A stretch of DNA of 54,771 nucleotides from an uncultured Clostridia bacterium. GTDB taxonomy: Bacteria; Bacillota; Clostridia; Christensenellales; Borkfalkiaceae. Positions 1 through 37,743 of the stretch are shown here, one piece after another. The stretch spans positions 1 to 54,771 of the forward strand of contig CANQNO010000009.1 of assembly GCA_947625245.1 (NCBI GenBank), read 5' to 3'. The notes beneath the pieces are model-generated. The model worked only from the letters and a program-made list of their open reading frames with translations, was not told the DNA's origin and did not search any database. How positions within the stretch are numbered: the stretch's first letter is position 1; every line of letters begins with the position of its first letter. Both the position numbers and the translations under genes were made by a program.

Positions 1-63
1 CTACTACAAACTGATTGATAAACCAAAAACGAAAAACGGATAAAACCTATTTACTGTCCATAA

Positions 64-1455
64 ATCAAGTTTACAAGCATAACTATCCCCGACAGCGTTA
101 CTTATATTGGTGAATATGCGTTCAATGGTTGCAAGGCAGAAATAAAATGGGGAGATAACCCCTCTATTAAAGAAATAGGAGACAATGCTTTCCGTAGATA
201 TTTAGGCACAAGCATAACCATACCAGACAGCATAACTTCTATCGGCGAGAGGGCGTTCTATGATTGCACAGCCGAAATTAAATGGGGCGATAATCCCTCT
301 ATAAAAGAAATAGGAAACTCTGCTTTCAGTGAATATAGAGGCACTAACATAACCATACCCGACAGCGTGACTTCTATCGGCAGTGCTGCGTTCGATGGTT
401 GCACAGGCTTTAAAAGCATAACCATACCCGACAGCGTAACCTCTATCGGCAGTGGTGCGTTTTATGGTTGCCTAAGTCTTAAAGGAGTATACATAACGGA
501 TATAGCCGCCTGGTGCAATATTGACTTTGGAAGTGATAACGCAAACCCGCTTTATTACGCACATAATTTATATTTAAACAATCAACTTGTAACCGAGCTT
601 ACCGCCGAAATGTTGCAAGGAGTTACCAAAATTAAAGGTAATGCGTTCGCGGGTTTCGGAGGCTCAAGCATAACCATACCCGACGGCGTAACTTCTATCG
701 GTCAATATGCGTTCAGTGGTTGCACGGCAGAAATAAAATGGGGAGATAACCCCTCTATTAAAGAAATAGGCAACGCTGCTTTCAGTGAATATAGAGGCAC
801 TAACATAACCATACCCGACAGCGTAACATCTATCGGCAGTTGTGCGTTCCTTAATAATTACTATCCGAATACATCCCTTGAAAGCATAACCATACCCGAC
901 AGCGTGACTTCTATCGGCAGAAGTGCGTTCTACAATTGCACGGCAGAAATAAAATGGGGAGATAATCCCTCTATTAAAGAAATAGTTGATTATGGTTTTG
1001 AAAATTATAAAGGCACAAGCATAACCATACCTGATAGCGTAACTTCTATTGGCTATGATGCGTTCAAGGGTTGCAAAAGCCTTACAAGCATAAACTTCGG
1101 CGATAAATCCCAACTTGCTTCAATCGGCAATTATGCGTTCTATGGTTGCACAAGCCTTACAAGCATAACCATACCTGATAGCGTTACTTCTATAGACAGT
1201 TGGGCGTTCTATGCGTGCAACAGCCTTAAAAGCGTAACCATAGGCAATGGCGTTACTTCTATCGGATGGGGTGCGTTCGGCTCCACCAACCTTAATACCG
1301 TGAAATTTAAAAATCCAACGGGGTGGTATCGCACAGAGGATTCTTCGGCTACAAGCGGAACGGATATATCAAGCAGTAGTTTGCAAAACTCCCAAACCGC
1401 CGCTAAATATCTTAAAGACACTTACAAATATTACTATTGGAAACGTAAATCTTAA
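64..1455 (+). pseudogene. 5'-truncated BspA-like leucine-rich repeat (LRR_5) gene fragment
   Basis: The frame is open from just after a TAA at 61-63 to the stop at 1453-1455, and it encodes about 20 degenerate repeats of the form SITIPDSVTSIGxxAFxGC. Repeat homology begins abruptly near 71. The 60 bases before it are unrelated and carry three in-frame stops. The first in-frame ATG is at 367, inside a repeat and without a ribosome binding site. There is no signal peptide. The C-terminus (TYKYYYWKRKS) matches the end of the complete BspA-like gene at 34633-37743, and long stretches are near-identical, for example the AEIKWGDNPSIKEIG block and the block running from AAWCNIDFG to MLQGVTKI. BspA-type proteins are cell-surface adhesion and binding proteins. 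I read this as a 5'-truncated paralogue, probably silent, or a recombination donor. A coding start at 367 is possible but unsupported. Confidence 0.75.
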
Positions 1456-24837: not shown

Positions 24838-25713
24838 TTATTTTTTAACCAAATCTTTATATACGAGAGGACGGCGGTCGCGGAAAAGCCCCCACTCCAA
24901 ACGCTGTTTTTGAAGTTCGTCGAGGTCGAATTCCGCGCAAATCGCGCCCTCTTCGGTGTTTTTAAAGCTCTTTACTATTTCGCCCGTGCCGTCCGCAATG
25001 AACGAGTTGCCGTAAAAGGTGAGAGAGGAACTTTGGTTGCCGTTCTCCGCGCACGGGGTAACGCTTTCGTCGCCTATTCTGTTTGCGGCGACTACGGGCA
25101 TGAGGTTTGCCGCGGCGTGACCGCACATTACCCTTTGCCAATGCCCGGAGCTATTGGTATTTAAAATTGGTTCGGAGCCTATCGCGGTGGGGAAAAGCAG
25201 GATTTCCGCGCCGTTCAGCGCGAGGGCGCGCGCCGTTTCGGGAAACCATTGGTCCCAGCATATTCCCACGCCTATCGTGCCGAAAGTTGTTTTAAAGGTC
25301 TTAAAGCCCGTATCGCCCGGGGTGAAGTAAAATTTTTCCTGATAATAATGGTCGTCGGGGATATGCGTTTTGCGGTATATTCCCTTTAATTTTCCGCAGT
25401 CGAGAATTTCTACAGAGTTGAAAAGGAGATTGCCGCAGCGCTCGTAAAAGCTGACGGGCACCACTACGTTCAACTCTTTGGTCACGGGCGCCAGGGCGCG
25501 GATCGCGGCGTTGGCGCGGGGTTCTTCGGCATAGCCGTAAAAGCCGTAATTGCGCTGCTGGCAAAAATAGGGGCGCTCGAAAAGTTCGGGCAACAGAATT
25601 ATGTTTGCGCTCTCCCCCGCCGCAGATTTTATTAAATTTATCGCCTTTTCTATATTTTCTTCGCGGCTTTCGGAGCACTTCATCTGCACCGCCGCAACGG
25701 TAGTTTTGCGCAT
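24838..25713 (-). CDS. aguB: N-carbamoylputrescine amidohydrolase
   Basis: The 291-residue nitrilase-superfamily enzyme cleaves N-carbamoylputrescine to putrescine, CO2 and ammonia. The catalytic triad is visible: Glu in ILLPELFERPYFC near residue 42, Lys in IYRKTHIPDD near 117 and Cys in GVGICWDQWFPE near 153. It begins MRKTTVAAVQMKCSESREENI. It is the last gene of the polyamine operon, 13 bases after aguA, with AAAGGAG at the start. A terminator follows. Length matches AguB, about 290-300 residues. Confidence 0.93.
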   Translation of the reverse strand: MRKTTVAAVQMKCSESREENIEKAINLIKSAAGESANIILLPELFERPYFCQQRNYGFYGYAEEPRANAAIRALAPVTKELNVVVPVSFYERCGNLLFNSVEILDCGKLKGIYRKTHIPDDHYYQEKFYFTPGDTGFKTFKTTFGTIGVGICWDQWFPETARALALNGAEILLFPTAIGSEPILNTNSSGHWQRVMCGHAAANLMPVVAANRIGDESVTPCAENGNQSSSLTFYGNSFIADGTGEIVKSFKNTEEGAICAEFDLDELQKQRLEWGLFRDRRPLVYKDLVKK

Positions 25714-25726
25714 TTTCTTTTCTCCT

Positions 25727-26782
25727 TTACAGCGGCACCTGCTGTGTAAGGCAGTGGATATTTCCGCCGCCGACTATAAGTTCGCGGGCAGGAACGGGAA
25801 TTATTTTTCTGCCCACAAATGCCGTTTTTAATACCTGTATCGCGTTTTTGTCGTTTTGGTCTCCGAATTGCGGCACAAGTACGCCTGCATTGCAAATATA
25901 AAAATTGACGTAGCTTGCGGCAAGGCGTTCGCCCTCTTTGCGCACCGCTTCGCCCTCGGCAAACCTGAAGCCCTTTAAATCGTACGAGGAGACGGCGACG
26001 GGCTTTTCGGGCAGGGTAAGTTTTGTTACATTTAAGCCGCTTTCCGTGAGTATGCGGTAATTCTCTCGGCAGATTTCGCCTTGTTCACCCGCGTCGTTCC
26101 ACGCCAATACCACGCTTTCCTTGCCCGTAAACGCGCAAATGTTGTCAACGTGACCGTCCGTTTCATCGCCCACAATGCCGCGTTTAAGCCAAATTATTTT
26201 TTCCGCGCCGAGATACTGCTTCAATTTTTCGGAAATCTGCGCTTTGGAAAGCGACGGGTTGCGCCCTTTGCTCAAAAGGCACTCCTCCGTTGTTATTATT
26301 GTGCCGCAACCGTTTGAGTGTACGGAGCCGCCCTCCAGCACGAACGGGCGGGCGTTTATGCACTTTACGCCGAGACGGGCGCAGGCATAAGATGCGAATT
26401 TGTCGTCGTTGAAATAGTCGCCGTACAGCCCGTTATAATCACCGCCCCAGGCATTGAAAGCCCAGTCGACGCCAAACCTTTCTCCGCCGCGTTTTATGAA
26501 CGTGGGCGCCATGTCGCGCGCCCAGCAATCGTCGGTTTTTACACGCCATAACTCAACACGTTCCGACAATATTTCATTTTTCAACAGCTCTTTTGCGCTG
26601 CTTTCGCCCGCTTCGGAGACGGCGAGAAACACCTTTTCGCCTTTGGAAATTTCGCTTATTATCCGCGCGAAAACGGGGCGGGCGGGCGCCGCGTTATAGG
26701 GCCAGCTGCCGGGGCGTTCCGGCCAAATCATTACGGTGCCGAAATGGGGTTCCCATTCGGCGGGCATTACGGTCTTTTCCAT
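25727..26782 (-). CDS. aguA: Agmatine deiminase
   Basis: The enzyme of about 351 residues turns agmatine into N-carbamoylputrescine and ammonia. It is a guanidine-modifying enzyme with the catalytic Cys in VGGGNIHCLTQQVP at the very C-terminus and the substrate-binding segments MPAEWEPHFGTVMIWP near residue 6, DCWARDMAPTF near 87 and EGGSVHSNGCGTIITT near 145. The ATG at 26782 overlaps the nspC stop in TGATG; a GTG three bases earlier is equally open. All catalytic motifs are present. Neighbouring aguB completes putrescine synthesis from agmatine. Confidence 0.95.
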   Translation of the reverse strand: MEKTVMPAEWEPHFGTVMIWPERPGSWPYNAAPARPVFARIISEISKGEKVFLAVSEAGESSAKELLKNEILSERVELWRVKTDDCWARDMAPTFIKRGGERFGVDWAFNAWGGDYNGLYGDYFNDDKFASYACARLGVKCINARPFVLEGGSVHSNGCGTIITTEECLLSKGRNPSLSKAQISEKLKQYLGAEKIIWLKRGIVGDETDGHVDNICAFTGKESVVLAWNDAGEQGEICRENYRILTESGLNVTKLTLPEKPVAVSSYDLKGFRFAEGEAVRKEGERLAASYVNFYICNAGVLVPQFGDQNDKNAIQVLKTAFVGRKIIPVPARELIVGGGNIHCLTQQVPL

Positions 26783-27894
26783 CACAGCCTCGATTTGAAA
26801 TCTTCATAGCCGAAAGTCTTAATAAGCGAATATTCGCCGTCTTTCAGCTTTGCTATAGCAGGCAGCGGCATGCCGTTGAAGGTGTTGTTTTTGACCATTG
26901 TGTATATTGCCATGTCCTCAAAACTCAACACGTCCCCGCAATTCAGCGGTTTATCGAAGGAATAATCGCCTATTACGTCGCCCGCAAGGCAGGTGCGTGA
27001 AGACAGGCGGTAAGTGTATTTTTTTACCCCCGCTTCCGCCGCGTCTTTGAGGGGCGGACGGTAGGGCATTTCGAGAACGTCGGGCATATGGCACTCCGCC
27101 GAAGTATCCAAAATGGCTATATCTATGCCGTTATGCACCGTTTCGAGCACTTTTGTGCAGAGATATCCCGCGCCGAGGGCAACCGCCTCGCCCGGTTCCA
27201 AGTAAATCTGCACACCGTATTTGTTTTGCAGGCGGCATATTTCCCTCTCCAACAGGGGAATATCATAGCCCTCTTTGGTTATGTGGTGACCGCCGCCGAG
27301 GTTTAGCCATTTGATCTTTTTGAAATATACGCCGAAATCCCGCTCAAAGACTTCAACCGTTTTACATAGCTCCTCCGCGCCCTGTTCACACAGGGTATGA
27401 ATATGGAAACCTTCGAGAAAACTCAACACGTCCCCGCAAAATTGCTCTTTTGTGACGCCGAGGCGAGAGCCGTATGCGCACGGGTCGTATATGGGGTTGC
27501 GCTGTGTGGAAAAGCAGGGGTTTATCCTTAAGCCCAGACTTTTGCCCTTTGCGAGGGGCGCAAATTTTTTTACCTGCGCCACTGAATTAAAGACTATGAA
27601 GTCACAGATTTTGACTATTTCCCCAAACTCGCTTTCGGTATAGGCGGGGCAGTATACGTGGTTCTCTCCCCCCATTTCCTCGTGCGCGAGACGGGCTTCG
27701 TAGAGCCCGCTCGAAGTCGTGCCGCTTAAATACTTTGAAATGAGCGGGTAAAACGTATAGCACGAAAAAGCCTTTTGGGCGAGCAGGATTTTACAGCCCG
27801 TGCGACGCTGCACACCCGCGAGAATTTCGAGATTTTTTATGAGCTTGTCCTCGTCTATCACATAGACTGGCGTAGGTAATTCGCTGAAACGCAT
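26782..27894 (-). CDS. nspC: Carboxynorspermidine/carboxyspermidine decarboxylase
   Basis: The 370-residue PLP enzyme of the alanine racemase-fold decarboxylases removes CO2 from carboxyspermidine to give spermidine. Markers are the PLP lysine in ILLAQKAFSCYTF near residue 41, the glycine-rich LNLGGGHHITKEGYD near 198, YLEPGEAVALGAG near 235 and SRTCLAGDVIGDYSF near 308. TSAECHMPDVLEMPYRP near 267 is characteristic of NspC rather than of LysA. It lies three bases after the dehydrogenase gene. Whether it prefers the norspermidine or the spermidine precursor cannot be told by eye; with putrescine made by this operon, spermidine is likely. Confidence 0.93.
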   Translation of the reverse strand: MRFSELPTPVYVIDEDKLIKNLEILAGVQRRTGCKILLAQKAFSCYTFYPLISKYLSGTTSSGLYEARLAHEEMGGENHVYCPAYTESEFGEIVKICDFIVFNSVAQVKKFAPLAKGKSLGLRINPCFSTQRNPIYDPCAYGSRLGVTKEQFCGDVLSFLEGFHIHTLCEQGAEELCKTVEVFERDFGVYFKKIKWLNLGGGHHITKEGYDIPLLEREICRLQNKYGVQIYLEPGEAVALGAGYLCTKVLETVHNGIDIAILDTSAECHMPDVLEMPYRPPLKDAAEAGVKKYTYRLSSRTCLAGDVIGDYSFDKPLNCGDVLSFEDMAIYTMVKNNTFNGMPLPAIAKLKDGEYSLIKTFGYEDFKSRL

Positions 27895-27897
27895 TTT

Positions 27898-29154
27898 TTA
27901 ATCCACTAAAACGGGGTTTTCGACAACTTTCCAGGGAAGACCGTACTTGTTGAGGGCTTCCATATAGGGGTCGGGGTCGAACTCCTCGCAGTTGTAAACG
28001 CCCGCTTTTTGCCAAATGCCCTTTACCACGAGCATTGCGCCTATCATTGCGGGTACGCCCGTGGTGTAGGATATTGCCTGCGAGCCGACTTCCTTATAAC
28101 ATTGCTGATGGTCGCAGACGTTGTAAATGTATACGGACTTCTTCTTGCCGTCCTTTATGCCCGTAAAAATACAACCTATGTTGGTTTTGCCTTTGGTGCG
28201 GGCGCCGAGCGAAGCGGGGTCGGGCAAGAGCGCCTTTAAAAACTGTATGGGCACTATCTCTTTGCCCTCGTAATTTACGGGCGTTGTGGAGAGCATGCCG
28301 ACGTTTTTAAGGCAGTTCATGTGTTGGATATAGCTTTGCCCGAAAGTCATGAAAAAGCGTATTCTTTTTACACCCTTTATGTTTTTGGCAAGGCTTTCGA
28401 TTTCCTCGTGGTGCAAAAGATACATATCCTTTTCGCCCACTCCCTCAAAGTTATAGCTCCTTTTGATTTCGAGAGGTTTTGTTTCGACCCACTTGCCGTC
28501 TTCCCAATACGAGCCGTTTGCCGAAACTTCGCGAAGGTTTATTTCGGGATTGAAATTCGTGGCGAAAGGATAGCCGTGGTCGCCGCCGTTGCAGTCGAGA
28601 ATATCTATGGTCTCTATTTTATCGAAAAAGTGTTTTTGGGCGTACGCCGCAAACACCTGCGAGACGCCCGGGTCGAAACCCGTGCCGAGAAGGGCGCATA
28701 TTCCCGCTTTTTTGAATTCGGAAAAGTAATCCCATTGATAGGAATAGTCGAAATACGCGGTAAAGCCCTTAGCCTTTACGCGCTTTTCGTAATTTTTGCG
28801 CCATACGGGGTCGTCGGTGTTTTCGCACTCGTAATTGGCGGTGTCTATATAGTGTGTTTGGGTTTTTAGACAGGCTTCCATTACCGTAAGATCCTGATAG
28901 GGCAGGGCGAGGTTTAAAACGGCGGCGGGTTTGAAAGAGTTTATAAGCTTTACAAGCTCCTCCACGTTCCCCGCGTCCGTCTGCGCGGTGGAAATCAGGG
29001 TTTTGGTTTTGCCTTTAAGTTCGGCGGCTATGGCGTCGCATTTGGATTTTGTGCGGCTGGCGATCAGCATCTCGGTAAAGACGTCGTCCGCCATGCAGCA
29101 TTTTTTTATTGCGACCTGAGCGACTCCGCCGCAGCCTATTATCATTATCTTCAT
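27898..29154 (-). CDS. Carboxynorspermidine/carboxyspermidine synthase (saccharopine dehydrogenase family)
   Basis: The 418-residue NADPH-dependent enzyme condenses putrescine with aspartate semialdehyde to carboxyspermidine. It has an N-terminal Rossmann motif IIGCGGVAQVAIKKC at residues 5-19, DTANYE near 101, and ALLGTGFDPGVSQVFAAYA near 152. The DCNGGDHGYPFATNFNP segment near 185 is typical of the CASDH group as opposed to lysine-pathway saccharopine dehydrogenases. The gene overlaps speE by four bases and precedes nspC. Recent work shows relatives that use agmatine as the amine; this sequence alone does not decide between putrescine and agmatine. Confidence 0.92.
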   Translation of the reverse strand: MKIMIIGCGGVAQVAIKKCCMADDVFTEMLIASRTKSKCDAIAAELKGKTKTLISTAQTDAGNVEELVKLINSFKPAAVLNLALPYQDLTVMEACLKTQTHYIDTANYECENTDDPVWRKNYEKRVKAKGFTAYFDYSYQWDYFSEFKKAGICALLGTGFDPGVSQVFAAYAQKHFFDKIETIDILDCNGGDHGYPFATNFNPEINLREVSANGSYWEDGKWVETKPLEIKRSYNFEGVGEKDMYLLHHEEIESLAKNIKGVKRIRFFMTFGQSYIQHMNCLKNVGMLSTTPVNYEGKEIVPIQFLKALLPDPASLGARTKGKTNIGCIFTGIKDGKKKSVYIYNVCDHQQCYKEVGSQAISYTTGVPAMIGAMLVVKGIWQKAGVYNCEEFDPDPYMEALNKYGLPWKVVENPVLVD

Positions 29155-30014
29155 TTCTTTTCTTCCTCCGCCGTCATTAAAATTTCTTCAACGTATTTCG
29201 GCAGCATGAACGCGCCGAGATGCAAGTTGGTGGTGTAGTATTGGGTGGGAATTTTGCGTTCGTTCCACTTCTTTGCGTCAAAGTCCTTTAAAGGGTGATA
29301 TTTTTTGCTCGCAAACCCGAAAAGCCAATAGCCCGACGAACATGTGGGGATATGCGCCTGGTAGACCCTTGAAACGGGAAAGCACTGGAATACCTTTTGG
29401 TGCATTTTGCGGCATTCTGTTTCGTCGTCCGCATAAAAAGGACTGCCGTGCTGGTAAACCATTATGCCCGTATCGTTTAAAGCCTTAAAGCAACTGCCGT
29501 AAAACTCCTTTGTGAAAAGCCCTTCGGTAGGTCCGAACGGGTCGGTGGAATCGTTTATTATAAGGTCGTATTCGCCGTGCTTGCCGCGGATGAATTTTAG
29601 CCCGTCCTCAATATAGAGATTTACGCGCGGGTCTTTAAGCCCCTCCGCCGTTTCGGGAAAGAACTTTTCGGAAACGTACACAAACATTTCGTCCTCTTCC
29701 ACCACGTCAATGCGCTCGATTTCGGGATAGCGGCAGAGCTCTTTTGCCACCCCGCCGTCGCCGCCGCCTATCACAAGCACTTTTTTGACGCAGGGATGAA
29801 CAGCCATGGGCACATGGGTCACCATTTCGTCATAGATGAACTCGTCCGCTTCCGAAAACACGACGTCGCCGTCAAGCGTTATGAATTTACCCAAATCCTC
29901 GCTGTCGAAAACATCGACCTGCTGGATATCGCTCTTTTCCGAAAAGAGCTGCTTTTTTACGCGGATATTCAGTTTTATGTTGGGGGTGTGAATATCCGAA
30001 AACCACATTTCCAT
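29151..30014 (-). CDS. speE: Spermidine synthase (polyamine aminopropyltransferase)
   Basis: The 287-residue SpeE begins MEMWFSDIHTPNIKLNIRV. The dcSAM-binding motif VIGGGDGGVAKELCRYP is near residue 82, and the catalytic region IINDSTDPFGPTEGLF near 153 keeps the DSxDP core. YADDETE and the later IPTCSSGYWLFGFASK fit the family. It normally moves an aminopropyl group from decarboxylated SAM to putrescine. No speD (SAM decarboxylase) gene is in the window, although the operon already encodes the alternative carboxyspermidine route. Its real substrate is therefore open: dcSAM made elsewhere, or another acceptor such as agmatine. It lies 18 bases after speA. Confidence 0.93.
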   Translation of the reverse strand: MEMWFSDIHTPNIKLNIRVKKQLFSEKSDIQQVDVFDSEDLGKFITLDGDVVFSEADEFIYDEMVTHVPMAVHPCVKKVLVIGGGDGGVAKELCRYPEIERIDVVEEDEMFVYVSEKFFPETAEGLKDPRVNLYIEDGLKFIRGKHGEYDLIINDSTDPFGPTEGLFTKEFYGSCFKALNDTGIMVYQHGSPFYADDETECRKMHQKVFQCFPVSRVYQAHIPTCSSGYWLFGFASKKYHPLKDFDAKKWNERKIPTQYYTTNLHLGAFMLPKYVEEILMTAEEEKK

Positions 30015-30032: not shown

Positions 30033-31472
30033 TTATTTTAAAACGTTTATTCTTTCCACCGAAAAGTCCTCGGTGCCCTGTACGTTACAGCCCTTTGCTT
30101 TGGCGTACTCTATATATTCTATTATTTCGCCCGTCACAAGTTCGCCCGGGGCGAGAATAGGTATGCCGGGCGGGTAGCACATTACAAACTCCGTGCAGAT
30201 CCTGCCCTCGGTCTGCCTTAACGGCAGAGAAATTTTGTCGGCATAAAACGCGCGGCGGGGCGGTACGGCGACTTTGGGCGAAAGATATTCCGAAGAGAGC
30301 ATGCCCGCTTTATCCTTTTTGTAAAGACGCTTTATGTCGTCGAGCGCGCCCACAAGCCGCTCTATGTCCTGATATCTGTCGCCTATGGAGACATATGCAA
30401 GCATATTGGAAATGTCGCCGAATTCGATTTGTATGCCGTATTCGTCGCGCAAAATGTCGTATACCTCTATTCCCGCAAGCCCCATATCCCTTGTGAATAC
30501 GGCAAGCTTTGTGACGTCGAAATCGAATACAGAAGTACCGTTTATAAGCTCTTTGCCGAAAGCGTAAAAACCGCCGAGGGAATTTATTTCGTCGCGGGCG
30601 TAATCCGCCATGCGTATAACCCGTTTAAAGGAAGCTTCGCCGTGCAGGGCGAGGTTTCTGCGGGTTATGTCGAGACTCGACATAAGAAGATAGCTCGCGC
30701 TGGTGGTCTGTGTCAAATTTATTATCTGTCGGACGTAATCGGCGTTTACCCCTTCGTTTAAGAGCAAAAGTGAGCTTTGGGTAAGGCTTCCGCCCGATTT
30801 GTGCATGGAAACCGCGGACATGTCCGCCCCCGCCTGCATGGCGGATACGGGGAGCTCGTCGCCGAAGGAAAAGTGTGTGCCGTGCGCTTCGTCGGCAAGG
30901 ACTTTCATGCCGTGGCAGTGCGCTATTTTAACTATCTCGCGCAGGTTTGAGCAAATGCCGTAATACGTGGGATTGTTAACGAGGACGGCGACGGCGTCGG
31001 GGTTGTCCTTGACAGCCTGTTCGAGCTTTGCCGGCTCCATGCCGAGGGATATGCCGAGCCTGTGGTCTACTTCGGGATTGACATATACGGGTATTGCGCC
31101 GCACAGCACAAGGGCGTTTATTGCGCTTTTATGCACGTTGCGGGGCATTATGATTTTATCCCCCTCTTTGCATACCGAAAAAATCATGCTCTGCACGGCG
31201 GAAGTGGTGCCGCCCACCATAAAGAAGGAGTGGGCCGCGCCGAACGCTTCGGCGGCAAGCGCCTCCGCGTCGCGTATTACAGAGGACGGGTGGCATAAGT
31301 CGTCGAGCGGCTTCATGGAATTCACGTCGAGCGAAACGCACTTTTCGCCCAAAAGACTTACAAGCTCGGGATTGCCTCTGCCGCGTTTGTGGCCGGGCAC
31401 GTCGAAAGGCACTACTCTCTGCTTTCCGAACCGCTCCAACGCTTCGAAAAGGGGCGCTTTTGTCTGATCCAT
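30033..31472 (-). CDS. speA: Arginine decarboxylase (Orn/Lys/Arg decarboxylase, short type)
   Basis: The 479-residue fold type I PLP decarboxylase is of the Bacillus SpeA length. It has DEAHGTHFSFGDELP near residue 194, the PLP lysine in VSMHKSGGSLTQSSLLL near 222, and the C-terminal YPPGIPILAPGE motif near 435. It commits arginine to agmatine. The two downstream agu genes consume agmatine, which supports arginine rather than lysine or ornithine as substrate. GGAGGGG lies before the ATG. It is the first gene of the six-gene polyamine operon, and its start is separated from the promoter by a leader of about 270 bases that ends in a terminator hairpin. Confidence 0.92.
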   Translation of the reverse strand: MDQTKAPLFEALERFGKQRVVPFDVPGHKRGRGNPELVSLLGEKCVSLDVNSMKPLDDLCHPSSVIRDAEALAAEAFGAAHSFFMVGGTTSAVQSMIFSVCKEGDKIIMPRNVHKSAINALVLCGAIPVYVNPEVDHRLGISLGMEPAKLEQAVKDNPDAVAVLVNNPTYYGICSNLREIVKIAHCHGMKVLADEAHGTHFSFGDELPVSAMQAGADMSAVSMHKSGGSLTQSSLLLLNEGVNADYVRQIINLTQTTSASYLLMSSLDITRRNLALHGEASFKRVIRMADYARDEINSLGGFYAFGKELINGTSVFDFDVTKLAVFTRDMGLAGIEVYDILRDEYGIQIEFGDISNMLAYVSIGDRYQDIERLVGALDDIKRLYKKDKAGMLSSEYLSPKVAVPPRRAFYADKISLPLRQTEGRICTEFVMCYPPGIPILAPGELVTGEIIEYIEYAKAKGCNVQGTEDFSVERINVLK

Positions 31473-31490
31473 ATTATTTCCCCTCCGCTT

Positions 31491-31525
31491 TAAAAAATAA
31501 AAACGACCTTTTTTAAGGTCGTTTT
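31491..31525 (-). terminator. Attenuator-type terminator directly upstream of speA
   Basis: AAAACGACCTT and AAGGTCGTTTT form a perfect stem with a four-base loop, followed on the minus strand by a U-rich run. It ends only a few bases before the GGAGG of speA, so full termination would silence the polyamine operon. A promoter lies upstream with no gene between them. Confidence 0.8.
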
Positions 31526-31740
31526 CGAAACGGCGGATAATCCCCCTTTTACGTTTTTCGTGGTTTGGACTTTTTAGAGTCTATATAGCAAATACTTTTA
31601 CTACTCTTATTGACCGTTTCACAAGTGACCTTTGGTTTCGATTATAAAGTAATCAACTTATAAAATTTGAGCTTTTAACTCAATCAATAATGCGGCAAAG
31701 CCGCTTAATATTTGCATGACTCTAAAAGCGCCATACTTAT
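31491..31740 (-). ncRNA. Structured leader RNA of the polyamine operon, candidate riboswitch or attenuator
   Basis: Read on the minus strand, a possible closing helix pairs TTTTAGAGTC (31718-31727) with GACTCTAAAA (31572-31581), ten perfect base pairs about 136 bases apart. Between them lie GCGGC/GCCGC (31692-31704), TTGAG/CTCAA (31667-31683) and GATTA/TAATC (31640-31654) hairpins. Downstream comes a perfect 11-bp terminator stem (31500-31525) with a TTTTTATTTTTT run, immediately before the speA ribosome binding site. The AAAGGTC at about 31628-31634 could pair with the terminator's GACCTT to form an antiterminator. It does not match the riboswitch consensus sequences I know. The gap 31473-31786 holds only this leader and its promoter. 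Confidence 0.65.
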
Positions 31741-31746
31741 ATAACG

Positions 31747-31775
31747 AGTATAATTCAAATGAAATTTTTTGTCAA
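31747..31775 (-). promoter_or_regulatory. Promoter of the polyamine operon
   Basis: Minus-strand TTGACA (31770-31775) and TATACT (31747-31752) are exactly 17 bases apart. This places the transcription start near 31740, about 268 bases before the speA ATG. Confidence 0.8.
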
Positions 31776-34632: not shown

Positions 34633-37600
34633 ATGAAAAAATTGTTGGTTTTGTTGTTGACCGCAGCCTGCGCTTTATGCCTCGCTTTTGCGGTTGCGGG
34701 TTGCAAGCCTGACGGAGGCGAAAGTTCGGGCGGCACGAACACCCAACAGGGCGAAACGGGCGGCTCGGAAGAAACGGGCGGCTCTGAAGAAACGGGTGAT
34801 ACGAGCGACGGCTCAGACAATACTGACGACTCGGGCAATTCGGGTGATACGGGCGACTCGGAAGAAACGGGCGGCGGAAACTACATATATAATTGTAGTC
34901 AAACGGAGCATTGGCAGGTAAATTCAGACGGCGAAGAGACGGCGCACAGTACCCATAACGTTGCAGACGGTGTCTGTCCAACTTGCGGCTACGTGGAAAA
35001 ATGCACCGAGGGGCTTGAATTTACTGAAATTAAGGAAGGCGAAGAGACCATAGGTTACGAAGTGTCAAGAGGCACGGCGACAGACAGTGATATCTATATC
35101 CCCTCTTTTTACAACGGATTGCCTGTAATTTCTATCGGTCAATGTGCTTTTACGTTTTTTTCACCACACTATGATGAAAACCTTAATCTTCAAATTACTG
35201 AATATTATGACGAAGACCTTGAAAGCATAATTATAGGCAACAGAGTAAATTCTATCGAAAGCAGTGCTTTTGAGGGCTGCGTAAACCTTAAGATGGTCAC
35301 CATACCTGACAGCATGACTTCCATCTGCGAGAGTGCATTCTATTATTGCACAAATCTTACAGACATAACCATACCCGACCGCGTTACTTATATCGGCGAG
35401 TGGGCGTTCTACAATTGCGATTTTACAGAACTAAATATACCGAGTTATGTAACTTCTATCGGCAAAGGAACGTTCGGATATTGTACAAGCCTTAAAAGCG
35501 TAACCATAGGCAAGGGTGTGACCTCTATCGGCGAATATGCGTTCGAGGTTTGCACAAACCTTACAAGCATTTCCATACCAAACAGCGTAACTTCTATCGG
35601 CAAATATGCGTTCGTGGAGTGTACAAATCTTGAAAGCGTATACATAACTGATATAGCCGCCTGGTGCAATATTGATTTTTATGTAGATAATAATTTTTCC
35701 GCCAACCCGCTGCTTTTTTACGCACATAATTTATATTTAGACAGTCAACTTGTAACAAAGCTTACTGCCGAAATGTTACAAGGAGTAACAAAAATTAAAG
35801 ATTATGCGTTCTCTTGGTGTACAAGCCTTACAAGCATAACCATACCAGACAGCGTAACTTCTATCGGCAATGGGGCGTTCGAGGGTTGCGAAAGCCTTTC
35901 AAGCGTATACATAACAGATTTAGCCGCCTGGTGCAATATTGATTTTGGAAGTTATGACGCAAACCCGCTTTATTACGCACATAATTTATATTTAGACAGT
36001 CAACTTGTAACAAAGCTTACTGCCGAAATGTTACAAGGAGTAACAAAAATTAAAGATTATGCGTTCTCTTGGTGTACAAGCCTTACAAGCATAACCATAC
36101 CAGACAGCGTAACTTCTATCGGCAATGGGGCGTTCGAGGGTTGCGAAAGCCTTTCAAGCGTATACATAACAGATTTAGCCGCCTGGTGCAATATTGATTT
36201 TGGAAGTTATGACGCAAACCCGCTTTATTACGCACATAATTTATATTTAAAAGGTAAACATGTAACTAATCTTGAAATACCTCAAGAAGTTATCGAAATT
36301 AAAAAGTATGCGTTCTATAATTGCAACAGCCTTACAAGCATAACCATACCCGACAGTGTAACTTCTATCGGTCAATATGCGTTCAGGGATTGCACAAGCC
36401 TTATAAGCGTAACCATACCCGAAAGAGTTACTTCAATCGGTAATAATGCGTTCTATGGTTGCACAAGCCTTGAAAGCATTACGGTTTCTGATCGCAATAC
36501 TGCATACGCAAGCCAGGACGGAATTTTATACAATAAAGATAAAACCAAATTTATACATATCCCACAAGCTATAAAAGGCGCCGTAATACCCGACGGAATT
36601 ACTTCTATCGGCGATTATGAGTTCAGTGGTTGTAAAAGACTTGAAAGCATAAGCATACCCGACAGCGTAACTTCTATTGGCAGTAGTGCGTTCAAGGATT
36701 GCACAAACCTTATTAGCGTAACCATACCTGATAGCGTAACTTCTATCGGTCAATATGCGTTCAGTGGTTGCACAGCTGAAATAAAATGGGGAGATAACCC
36801 CTCTATTAAAGAAATAGGAGACTATGCTTTCGATGACTATAAAGGCACAAGCATAAGCATACCCGACAGCGTAACTTCTATCGGCAAATATGCGTTCAGT
36901 GGTTGCACAGCCGATATCAAATGGGGAGATAACCCCTCTATAAAAGAAATAGGTCAGTATGCTTTCAGTGGATATAAAGGCACAAGCATAACCATACCCG
37001 ACAGCATAACTTCTATCGGCTATAAGGCGTTTGAAAATCGCAAAAACCTTACAAGCGTAACCATAGGCAACGGCGTAACTTCTATCGATAATAGTGCGTT
37101 CTATAATTGCACAAGCCTTGAAAACGTATACATAACTGATATGACCGCCTGGTGCAATATTGATTTTGGAGATGATGACTCCAACCCGCTTTATTACGCA
37201 CATAATTTATATTTAAACAATAACCTTATAACCGAGCTTACTGCCGAAATGTTGCAAGGAGTTACCAAAATTAAAAGTTATGCTTTCGCAGGTTTCGGCG
37301 GCACAAGCGTAACCATACCCGACAGCGTAACTTCTATCGGCAGATATGCGTTCTATGGTTGCACAAGTCTTGAAAGCATAACCATACCCGACAGCGTTAC
37401 TTCTATCGGCGAATATGCGTTCTATAATTGCACAAATCTTACAAGCGTAACCATAGGTAACGGCGTTACTTCTATCGGTTATATGGCGTTCAGAGGTTGC
37501 ACAAACCTTACAAGCGTAACCATACCCGACAGCGTAATTTCTATCGGCTATAGGGCGTTCTATGGGTGTACAAACCTTGAAAGCGTTACCTTTAATAATC

Positions 37601-37743
37601 CCAACGGGTGGTATCGCGCTTCAAGTTCTTCGGCGACAAGCGGAACGGATATTAAAAGCGAAGATTTGCAAAAACCCGAAACCGCCGCTCAATATCTTAG
37701 AAGCACTTACATGGATTACTATTGGAAACGTAAAACGACTTAA
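34633..37743 (+). CDS. BspA-like leucine-rich repeat surface lipoprotein
   Basis: The 1036-residue protein has a lipoprotein signal peptide (MKKLLVLLLTAACALCLAF, lipobox AVAGC with Cys24), a Gly/Ser/Glu/Asp/Thr linker (about residues 25-82), a CPTCGYVEKC pair of cysteines near 115, and then about 30 LRR_5 repeats with the core SITIPDSVTSIGxxAFxGC. It ends TYMDYYWKRKTT. BspA-like proteins of gut and oral bacteria bind host matrix proteins or other cells; this one should be exposed on the cell surface. It contains an exact 255-bp tandem duplication. Transcription is set by a promoter, structured leader and terminator just upstream. The coding sequence is AT-richer than its neighbours. A truncated paralogue lies at 64-1455. 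Confidence 0.92.
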   Translation: MKKLLVLLLTAACALCLAFAVAGCKPDGGESSGGTNTQQGETGGSEETGGSEETGDTSDGSDNTDDSGNSGDTGDSEETGGGNYIYNCSQTEHWQVNSDGEETAHSTHNVADGVCPTCGYVEKCTEGLEFTEIKEGEETIGYEVSRGTATDSDIYIPSFYNGLPVISIGQCAFTFFSPHYDENLNLQITEYYDEDLESIIIGNRVNSIESSAFEGCVNLKMVTIPDSMTSICESAFYYCTNLTDITIPDRVTYIGEWAFYNCDFTELNIPSYVTSIGKGTFGYCTSLKSVTIGKGVTSIGEYAFEVCTNLTSISIPNSVTSIGKYAFVECTNLESVYITDIAAWCNIDFYVDNNFSANPLLFYAHNLYLDSQLVTKLTAEMLQGVTKIKDYAFSWCTSLTSITIPDSVTSIGNGAFEGCESLSSVYITDLAAWCNIDFGSYDANPLYYAHNLYLDSQLVTKLTAEMLQGVTKIKDYAFSWCTSLTSITIPDSVTSIGNGAFEGCESLSSVYITDLAAWCNIDFGSYDANPLYYAHNLYLKGKHVTNLEIPQEVIEIKKYAFYNCNSLTSITIPDSVTSIGQYAFRDCTSLISVTIPERVTSIGNNAFYGCTSLESITVSDRNTAYASQDGILYNKDKTKFIHIPQAIKGAVIPDGITSIGDYEFSGCKRLESISIPDSVTSIGSSAFKDCTNLISVTIPDSVTSIGQYAFSGCTAEIKWGDNPSIKEIGDYAFDDYKGTSISIPDSVTSIGKYAFSGCTADIKWGDNPSIKEIGQYAFSGYKGTSITIPDSITSIGYKAFENRKNLTSVTIGNGVTSIDNSAFYNCTSLENVYITDMTAWCNIDFGDDDSNPLYYAHNLYLNNNLITELTAEMLQGVTKIKSYAFAGFGGTSVTIPDSVTSIGRYAFYGCTSLESITIPDSVTSIGEYAFYNCTNLTSVTIGNGVTSIGYMAFRGCTNLTSVTIPDSVISIGYRAFYGCTNLESVTFNNPNGWYRASSSSATSGTDIKSEDLQKPETAAQYLRSTYMDYYWKRKTT
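35721..36230 (+). repeat. Exact tandem duplication of 255 bp inside the BspA-like gene
   Basis: Bases 35721-35975 are repeated at 35976-36230, by eye without a mismatch. Each copy encodes 85 residues covering the AEMLQGVTKIKDYAF to AAWCNIDFGSYDANPLYY region. A third, partial copy of the first 19 bases follows. The length is a multiple of three, so the frame is kept. It implies a recent event and possible copy-number variation. Confidence 0.9.

Follow-up and report, generated by a model that had tools for sequence, protein, structure and literature searches.

A Leader RNA before a Clostridial Polyamine Operon: An Arm-Less Relative of the ldcC RNA and Probable Polyamine-Sensing OFF Riboswitch

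The Locus

The stretch of DNA analysed here (the window) comprises 54,771 nucleotides and is one contig of a 1.42-Mb assembly of an uncultured Clostridia bacterium of the Borkfalkiaceae. Its minus strand carries a polyamine operon that begins with speA (30033..31472), which the family searches (Pfam only) place in the Orn/Lys/Arg decarboxylase family as a whole, without a particular substrate. Behind it lie speE (29151..30014), a Lys1-like carboxy(nor)spermidine synthase/dehydrogenase gene (27898..29154), nspC for carboxynorspermidine decarboxylase (26782..27894), aguA for agmatine deiminase (25727..26785) and aguB for N-carbamoylputrescine amidase (24838..25713), all on the same strand. speE and nspC scored above the NCBIfam cut-off, and the Lys1-like gene, aguA and aguB carry the names of their best NCBIfam matches, which fell below it. 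The operon includes speE, but the window genome G000 has no recognised SpeD to provide the aminopropyl donor (0 matches to PF02675; of 14 genomes searched, 8 were positive for the control profile), and the carboxyspermidine route may supply spermidine instead. Elsewhere in the window, positions 34633-37743 of the plus strand hold an open reading frame of 1036 amino acids built of leucine-rich-repeat-like units, which is BspA-like by eye.

Upstream of speA, a promoter (TTGACA-17-TATACT, 31747..31775, minus strand) matches the consensus at 11 of 12 positions, although the number of promoter-like sites in the region as such is not above chance (2, versus 1.2 +/- 1.3 in shuffles). Given a predicted transcription start at 31740, the leader spans 31740-31473 of the minus strand, i.e., 268 nt, and ends in an intrinsic terminator hairpin of 12 pairs (31499..31526, minus strand) with a T-rich tail that reaches to about 31491. 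The terminator stands directly 5′ of the Shine-Dalgarno stretch (31490-31481), which is followed by the speA ATG at 31472; seven terminator-like sites were counted in the region, versus 2.2 +/- 1.3 in shuffles. None of 200 dinucleotide shuffles of 31745-31473 reaches the folding stability of the actual sequence (z -4.17). A first-pass annotation, made from the letters alone, had placed the promoter, a leader of about 268 bases and a terminator before speA, and these positions were confirmed when the minus strand was read back. It had also seen no gene between promoter and terminator, in agreement with the absence of any open reading frame of at least 80 amino acids (the lower bound of the frames considered) overlapping 31473-31740.

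Distribution of the Leader RNA

A close speA orthologue was found in 30 of 93 genomes of the same genus, two of them fragmented. A nearly invariant core is common to 27 of the 28 leaders that were read, and hexamers resembling the window promoter stand 5′ of the RNA in many of the aligned leaders (by eye). The one leader without the core, L005 (G021:C23), keeps a promoter and a short terminator-like hairpin before speA by eye, and is a natural deletion of the putative sensing part.

A covariance model, R1, was built from 21 same-genus leaders that had been picked for their position before speA; for subsequent hits, only the RNA itself served as the criterion. R1 matched 39 of 93 genomes of the genus with one copy each, 73 of 301 of the family (8 of 18 genera), 26 of 297 of the order (15 of 125 genera) and 20 of 398 of the phylum (15 of 267 genera), in samples that overlap. 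An 18-base core pattern searched over named genomes found at least 118 stretches. Among the 80 pattern matches listed, 72 also match R1 (E up to 0.1), including those in Ruminococcus flavefaciens, Acetobacterium, Blautia, Sporobacter and a Bacillus. Three of the eight listed without an R1 match (L188, L218 and L237) still precede speA, and at the other five a clear polyamine gene is absent.

Comparative Structure

The loci were reduced stepwise for alignment. From 172 model hits, 10 were dropped as too short (contig ends), two because the anchor was missing (L019 and L025) and seven as duplicates (L138, L183, L220, L190, L169, L201 and L191), and from 19 phylum loci seven without anchor and one duplicate were dropped, so that 164 loci overall remained. 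Removal of two loci without the 5′ anchor and thinning of near-identical sequences then gave 136, and L236 was left out. The resulting 135 cores were aligned with MAFFT (alignment A4) without fitting to any structure, and 27 proposed pairs were tested.

The first-pass annotation had drawn three hairpins enclosed in one helix. The comparative model replaces this picture by three long-range helices (P1, P2 and P4) and four hairpins (P3, P5, P6 and P7), all given here in minus-strand orientation. P1 joins TTTTAGAGTC (31718..31727) to its complement GACTCTAAAA (31572..31581); the ten-pair closing helix proposed earlier is thus present as complementarity in the window, but only AGAGTC/GACTCT recurs among relatives. 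P2 joins GCAAATATT (31707..31715) to AGTATTTGC (31588..31596), and P4 joins TTATTGATT (31682..31690) to GGTCAATAA (31607..31615). The hairpins are P3 (GCGGC-TTT-GCCGC, 31692..31704), P5 (TTGAG..CTCAA, 31667..31683), P6 (GATTA..TAATC, 31640..31654) and P7 (ACC-AAA-GGT, 31628..31636). Arm and helix details vary at three same-genus loci and at others.

Standard pairs fill 87.0% of the cells in the 27 pairs over the 135 cores, versus at most 47.0% when the partners were slid. Double changes occur in 252 cells, versus a mean of 97.8 in shuffles (0 of 500 as high) and at most 130 in slid versions, and the covariation score is 0.179 versus 0.110 (shuffled) and at most 0.075 (slid). Two further measures are barely higher than in the version slid by -1, namely the pairs with a double change (18 versus 17) and the further pair types (54 versus 53). 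Double changes are present in P3, P5, P6 and P7, which covary in related leaders; a covariation test of helices in related speA leaders had been proposed in the first-pass annotation. P7 is paired in 59.5% of cells. P4 is 98-99% paired and nearly invariant, and together with much of the core it is too invariant for covariation.

The outer helices were followed by comparing pairing within a leader to pairing with the strands of other leaders. In 85 leaders that carry an additional arm (see below), the sequence immediately 5′ of the arm pairs with the 3′ strand of its own P2/P1 at -12.98 kcal/mol and with those of others at -9.98 kcal/mol (z -10.1). Among 24 arm-less leaders of the genus, P1 shows a cis preference (z -3.9), and the nearly invariant P2 shows none. 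A test of all pairs against a tree-based null gave eight pairs at E of about 0.05 or less: three helix pairs (in the arm, P3 and P6), one off-register in P3 and four that are not pairs. This test was confounded because arm-less leaders had been aligned into the arm columns, and it was superseded by the core-only alignment.

Relation to the ldcC RNA

The first-pass annotation could not assign the leader to an RNA class, took it for a candidate new riboswitch or attenuator and proposed an Rfam search. In the window, Rfam gave no match at gathering scores, the leader alone gave only sub-threshold matches (up to E 10), and RF02440 has no match in the window's own genome. In 15 of 20 relatives scanned with Rfam, RF02440, listed as “SpF59_sRNA (ldcC RNA)”, was found at or within the 5′ part of the R1 match. 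A search of the 398 phylum genomes gave 17 RF02440 hits above the cut-off and one weak hit; each of the 17 overlaps with R1 in its own genome, and RF02440 is therefore read as one arm of the RNA. Phylum R1 hits that lack it are those in the window's genome, G884 and G637. In relatives, the arm lies just 5′ of P3. Within the genus, it occurs in only three of the 39 RNA-bearing genomes (G034, G041 and G084) and is missing from the other 36, the window's included, which is why Rfam is silent on the window copy.

The window leader is a version, lacking the arm, of an RNA that has been described incompletely; it is homologous to the carriers of RF02440, and the arm was presumably lost in the window's genus rather than gained elsewhere. 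The RNA is accordingly not a wholly new class. The two occupy the same position in relatives but differ in extent: the Rfam model, which was the basis of the comparison, is 54 nt long and describes one arm, whereas the leader RNA measures about 150 nt without the arm and about 200-230 nt with it. The ldcC RNA was reportedly put forward by Weinberg and colleagues in 2017 as a candidate cis-regulatory motif. A literature search brought up no paper recognisably about the leader RNA.

Genes behind the RNA

The gene nearest to the RNA was determined at 188 loci, i.e., the 172 model hits and 16 phylum loci (L296, L305 and L306 lacked the anchor), with at least seven duplicates still counted. It was speA at 71, speD at 67, potA at 35 and a carboxyspermidine dehydrogenase gene at 10; the five loci without a recognised gene all lie on contigs that end within 72 nt. 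A gene of polyamine synthesis or uptake was thus nearest at 183 of the 183 loci with enough sequence, at a distance of at most 338 nt, where the choice was among 14 reference proteins (E 1e-6) and a small unrelated intervening gene would escape. The name speD is backed by PF02675 in one representative and by similarity in the others.

In 11 genomes of the same genus, the RNA is present without a close speA orthologue. In nine of these, the RNA is followed directly by a complete ABC operon of four genes; in the other two, the contig ends inside the third gene (L075) or before any gene (L076). At L082, the first gene is PotA above the NCBIfam cut-off, and the best NCBIfam matches of the other three are parts of spermidine/putrescine transporters, below the cut-off. 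The potABCD-bearing genomes keep a distant decarboxylase paralogue of about 30% identity.

This exclusive position before polyamine genes bears on the typing of RF02440 as “Gene; sRNA” in Rfam. A terminated leader would resemble a small RNA, but that the molecule acts mainly elsewhere is very improbable in view both of its position and of the cis-specific antiterminator complementarity described next.

Probable Antitermination and Switching

The first-pass annotation had noticed that an internal AAAGGTC (31627..31633) is complementary to GACCTT in the terminator (31515..31520; both minus strand) and could form an antiterminator. A recognisable terminator is present in 121 of the 135 leaders, in which the mean energy for pairing of the strand made of the P7 3′ half and ACUUGUG is -13.96 kcal/mol with the 5′ half of the leader's own terminator and -10.48 kcal/mol with those of other species; none of 20,000 permutations, which ignore kinship, reached -13.96, and the proposal gained support in this way. 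Under the same permutations (again 0 of 20,000, kinship ignored), the preference holds in 23 arm-less leaders of the same genus (cis -13.73 versus trans -11.43) and in the remaining 98 (-14.02 versus -11.19). A 22-nt sliding scan that made no prior choice of strand was dominated by offsets -30 and -20 (AAAGGTC-ACTTGT), with z of -13.6 and -8.6 overall and -5.8 and -2.3 in the genus only, the runners-up being -4.8 at offset -40 (all leaders) and -2.3 at offset -110 (genus).

In the window transcript up to the terminator loop, the antiterminator fold (-55.5) is favoured over the core fold (-54.4) by about 1 kcal/mol; with the full terminator transcribed, the balance shifts to the core fold plus terminator (-68.6, versus -57.7 for the antiterminator). 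A factor that stabilises the core would promote termination, and the arrangement is therefore that of an OFF switch. Comparison and computed folds together give a conserved structured domain joined to an expression platform with mutually exclusive folds, which is one mark of a riboswitch beside direct, selective ligand binding that alters expression. The RNA, its gene company, its covarying helices and the cis-specific antiterminator pairing are established by comparison of sequences among genomes, and the suggestion that the polyamine operon is preceded by a leader RNA of attenuator type is borne out to that extent.

Such an attenuator might instead sense the polyamine through a protein or the ribosome (an RNA-binding protein or a leader peptide), with no direct binding. 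There is precedent, since speF and related polyamine leaders work through upstream open reading frames (PMC10319736); they resemble the present leader in placing polyamine genes under leader control and differ in that it conserves no such frame. A leader-peptide attenuator was rejected, as a short frame behind a Shine-Dalgarno-like stretch occurs in only 19 of 135 leaders and no upstream frame is conserved. What is conserved in the core, moreover, is its structure, in which indels occur and the hairpins vary, and indirect sensing of either kind appears rather improbable. A T-box was also considered and dropped, as neither the window nor 20 relatives gave a match.

The preferred reading is that the leader, an arm-less RF02440 relative, is a polyamine-sensing OFF riboswitch that acts by transcription attenuation and answers most likely to spermidine; this is held to be probable. 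For direct ligand binding, ligand identity and the direction of switching, we infer the following sequence of events. At low levels of the polyamine, most likely spermidine, AAAGGUC (the P7 3′ strand) would be free to capture the 5′ strand of the terminator, GACCUU, and polymerase would continue into speA. When spermidine is plentiful, it would bind the conserved multi-helix core and keep it closed, the terminator would form, and the operon would be off.

The Probable Ligand

Polyamines are abundant and bind RNA. Spermidine is the most likely ligand because all the regulated genes have it in common as product or cargo. Arginine, agmatine, putrescine and spermidine had been named in the first-pass annotation as natural candidates; spermidine fits best among them, and arginine and agmatine became less likely because potABCD, too, has the RNA in front of it in genomes that lack a close speA orthologue. 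A riboswitch for another compound of the pathway (putrescine, norspermidine, agmatine, arginine, decarboxylated SAM or methylthioadenosine) would suit an operon that starts from arginine/agmatine genes and includes speE, as in the window, and also the 67 of 188 loci at which speD comes first. Against this stand the 35 loci headed by potA, where arginine, agmatine or the SAM products would hardly be sensible, the transporter-only loci arguing in the same sense despite the distant decarboxylase paralogue in their genomes, and the lack of a PF02675 SpeD in the window genome. Such a ligand seems unlikely, although putrescine and norspermidine keep some plausibility.

An RNA and a Protein Regulator before potABCD

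Relatives of PotB were found in 61 of 93 genomes of the genus, 11 of which are those that carry the RNA and lack a close speA orthologue. From the remaining 50 PotB loci, 20 were examined, one of them cut by a contig end; two of the genomes examined, G041 and G084, have the RNA before speA. R1 found no match at the 19 complete RNA-less pot loci (best E 3.9), and at all 19 potA is immediately preceded by a gene for an HTH-cupin protein of 177 amino acids. Pfam, applied to two of the proteins, gave HTH_3 and Cupin_2, and the one compared with NCBIfam has PuuR as its best match over its length, below the cut-off. At 12 RNA-bearing pot loci, no HTH-cupin motif was seen in the locus stretch examined. 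Since either the RNA or the HTH-cupin gene stands before the same transporter, the two, an RNA and a polyamine-type protein regulator, alternate within the genus. The PuuR-type repressor takes the place before potA that the leader RNA occupies elsewhere in the genus; being a protein, it shares with the RNA at most a role. In E. coli, PuuR answers putrescine.

Relation to Known Spermidine Riboswitches

The known spermidine riboswitch is a rare SAM-I variant with 13 examples, an OFF switch that acts via transcription termination, before which no spermidine riboswitch had been definitively demonstrated (PMC10853860). That RNA likewise serves in Gram-positive leaders of polyamine genes, but it has the SAM-I fold, and the leader RNA is a different RNA; no SAM-I match was found in the window or in 20 relatives, and identity with this variant was rejected. 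A leader before potABCD is also described for two Gammaproteobacteria (PMC2965389).

The wider proposal is that the leader RNA represents a second natural class of spermidine riboswitch, structurally unrelated to the SAM-I variant and far more widespread, of which the Rfam sRNA is one dispensable arm, and which governs polyamine synthesis or uptake depending on the genome and takes the place that a PuuR-like repressor has in sister species; the balance tips slightly in favour of this proposal taken as a whole. The question of a spermidine riboswitch becomes directly testable with a separate RNA that is widespread and accompanied only by genes of polyamine synthesis or uptake. An Rfam “sRNA” is, moreover, indicated to be one arm of a cis-regulatory RNA, with arm-less clades missed by annotation, and an RNA and a protein regulator are seen to alternate before one transporter within one genus.

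Some individual copies deserve mention. One family genome (G183) holds two copies of the RNA (L085 and L086). A weak copy of 42 bits (L186) precedes speA, speE and speB on a contig filed under Bacteroidota (Salinivirgaceae), which may reflect mis-binning or transfer. At L109, a raiA RNA (RF03072, 155 bits; positions 42-241, minus strand) lies a few hundred bases upstream of the leader RNA, on the opposite strand.
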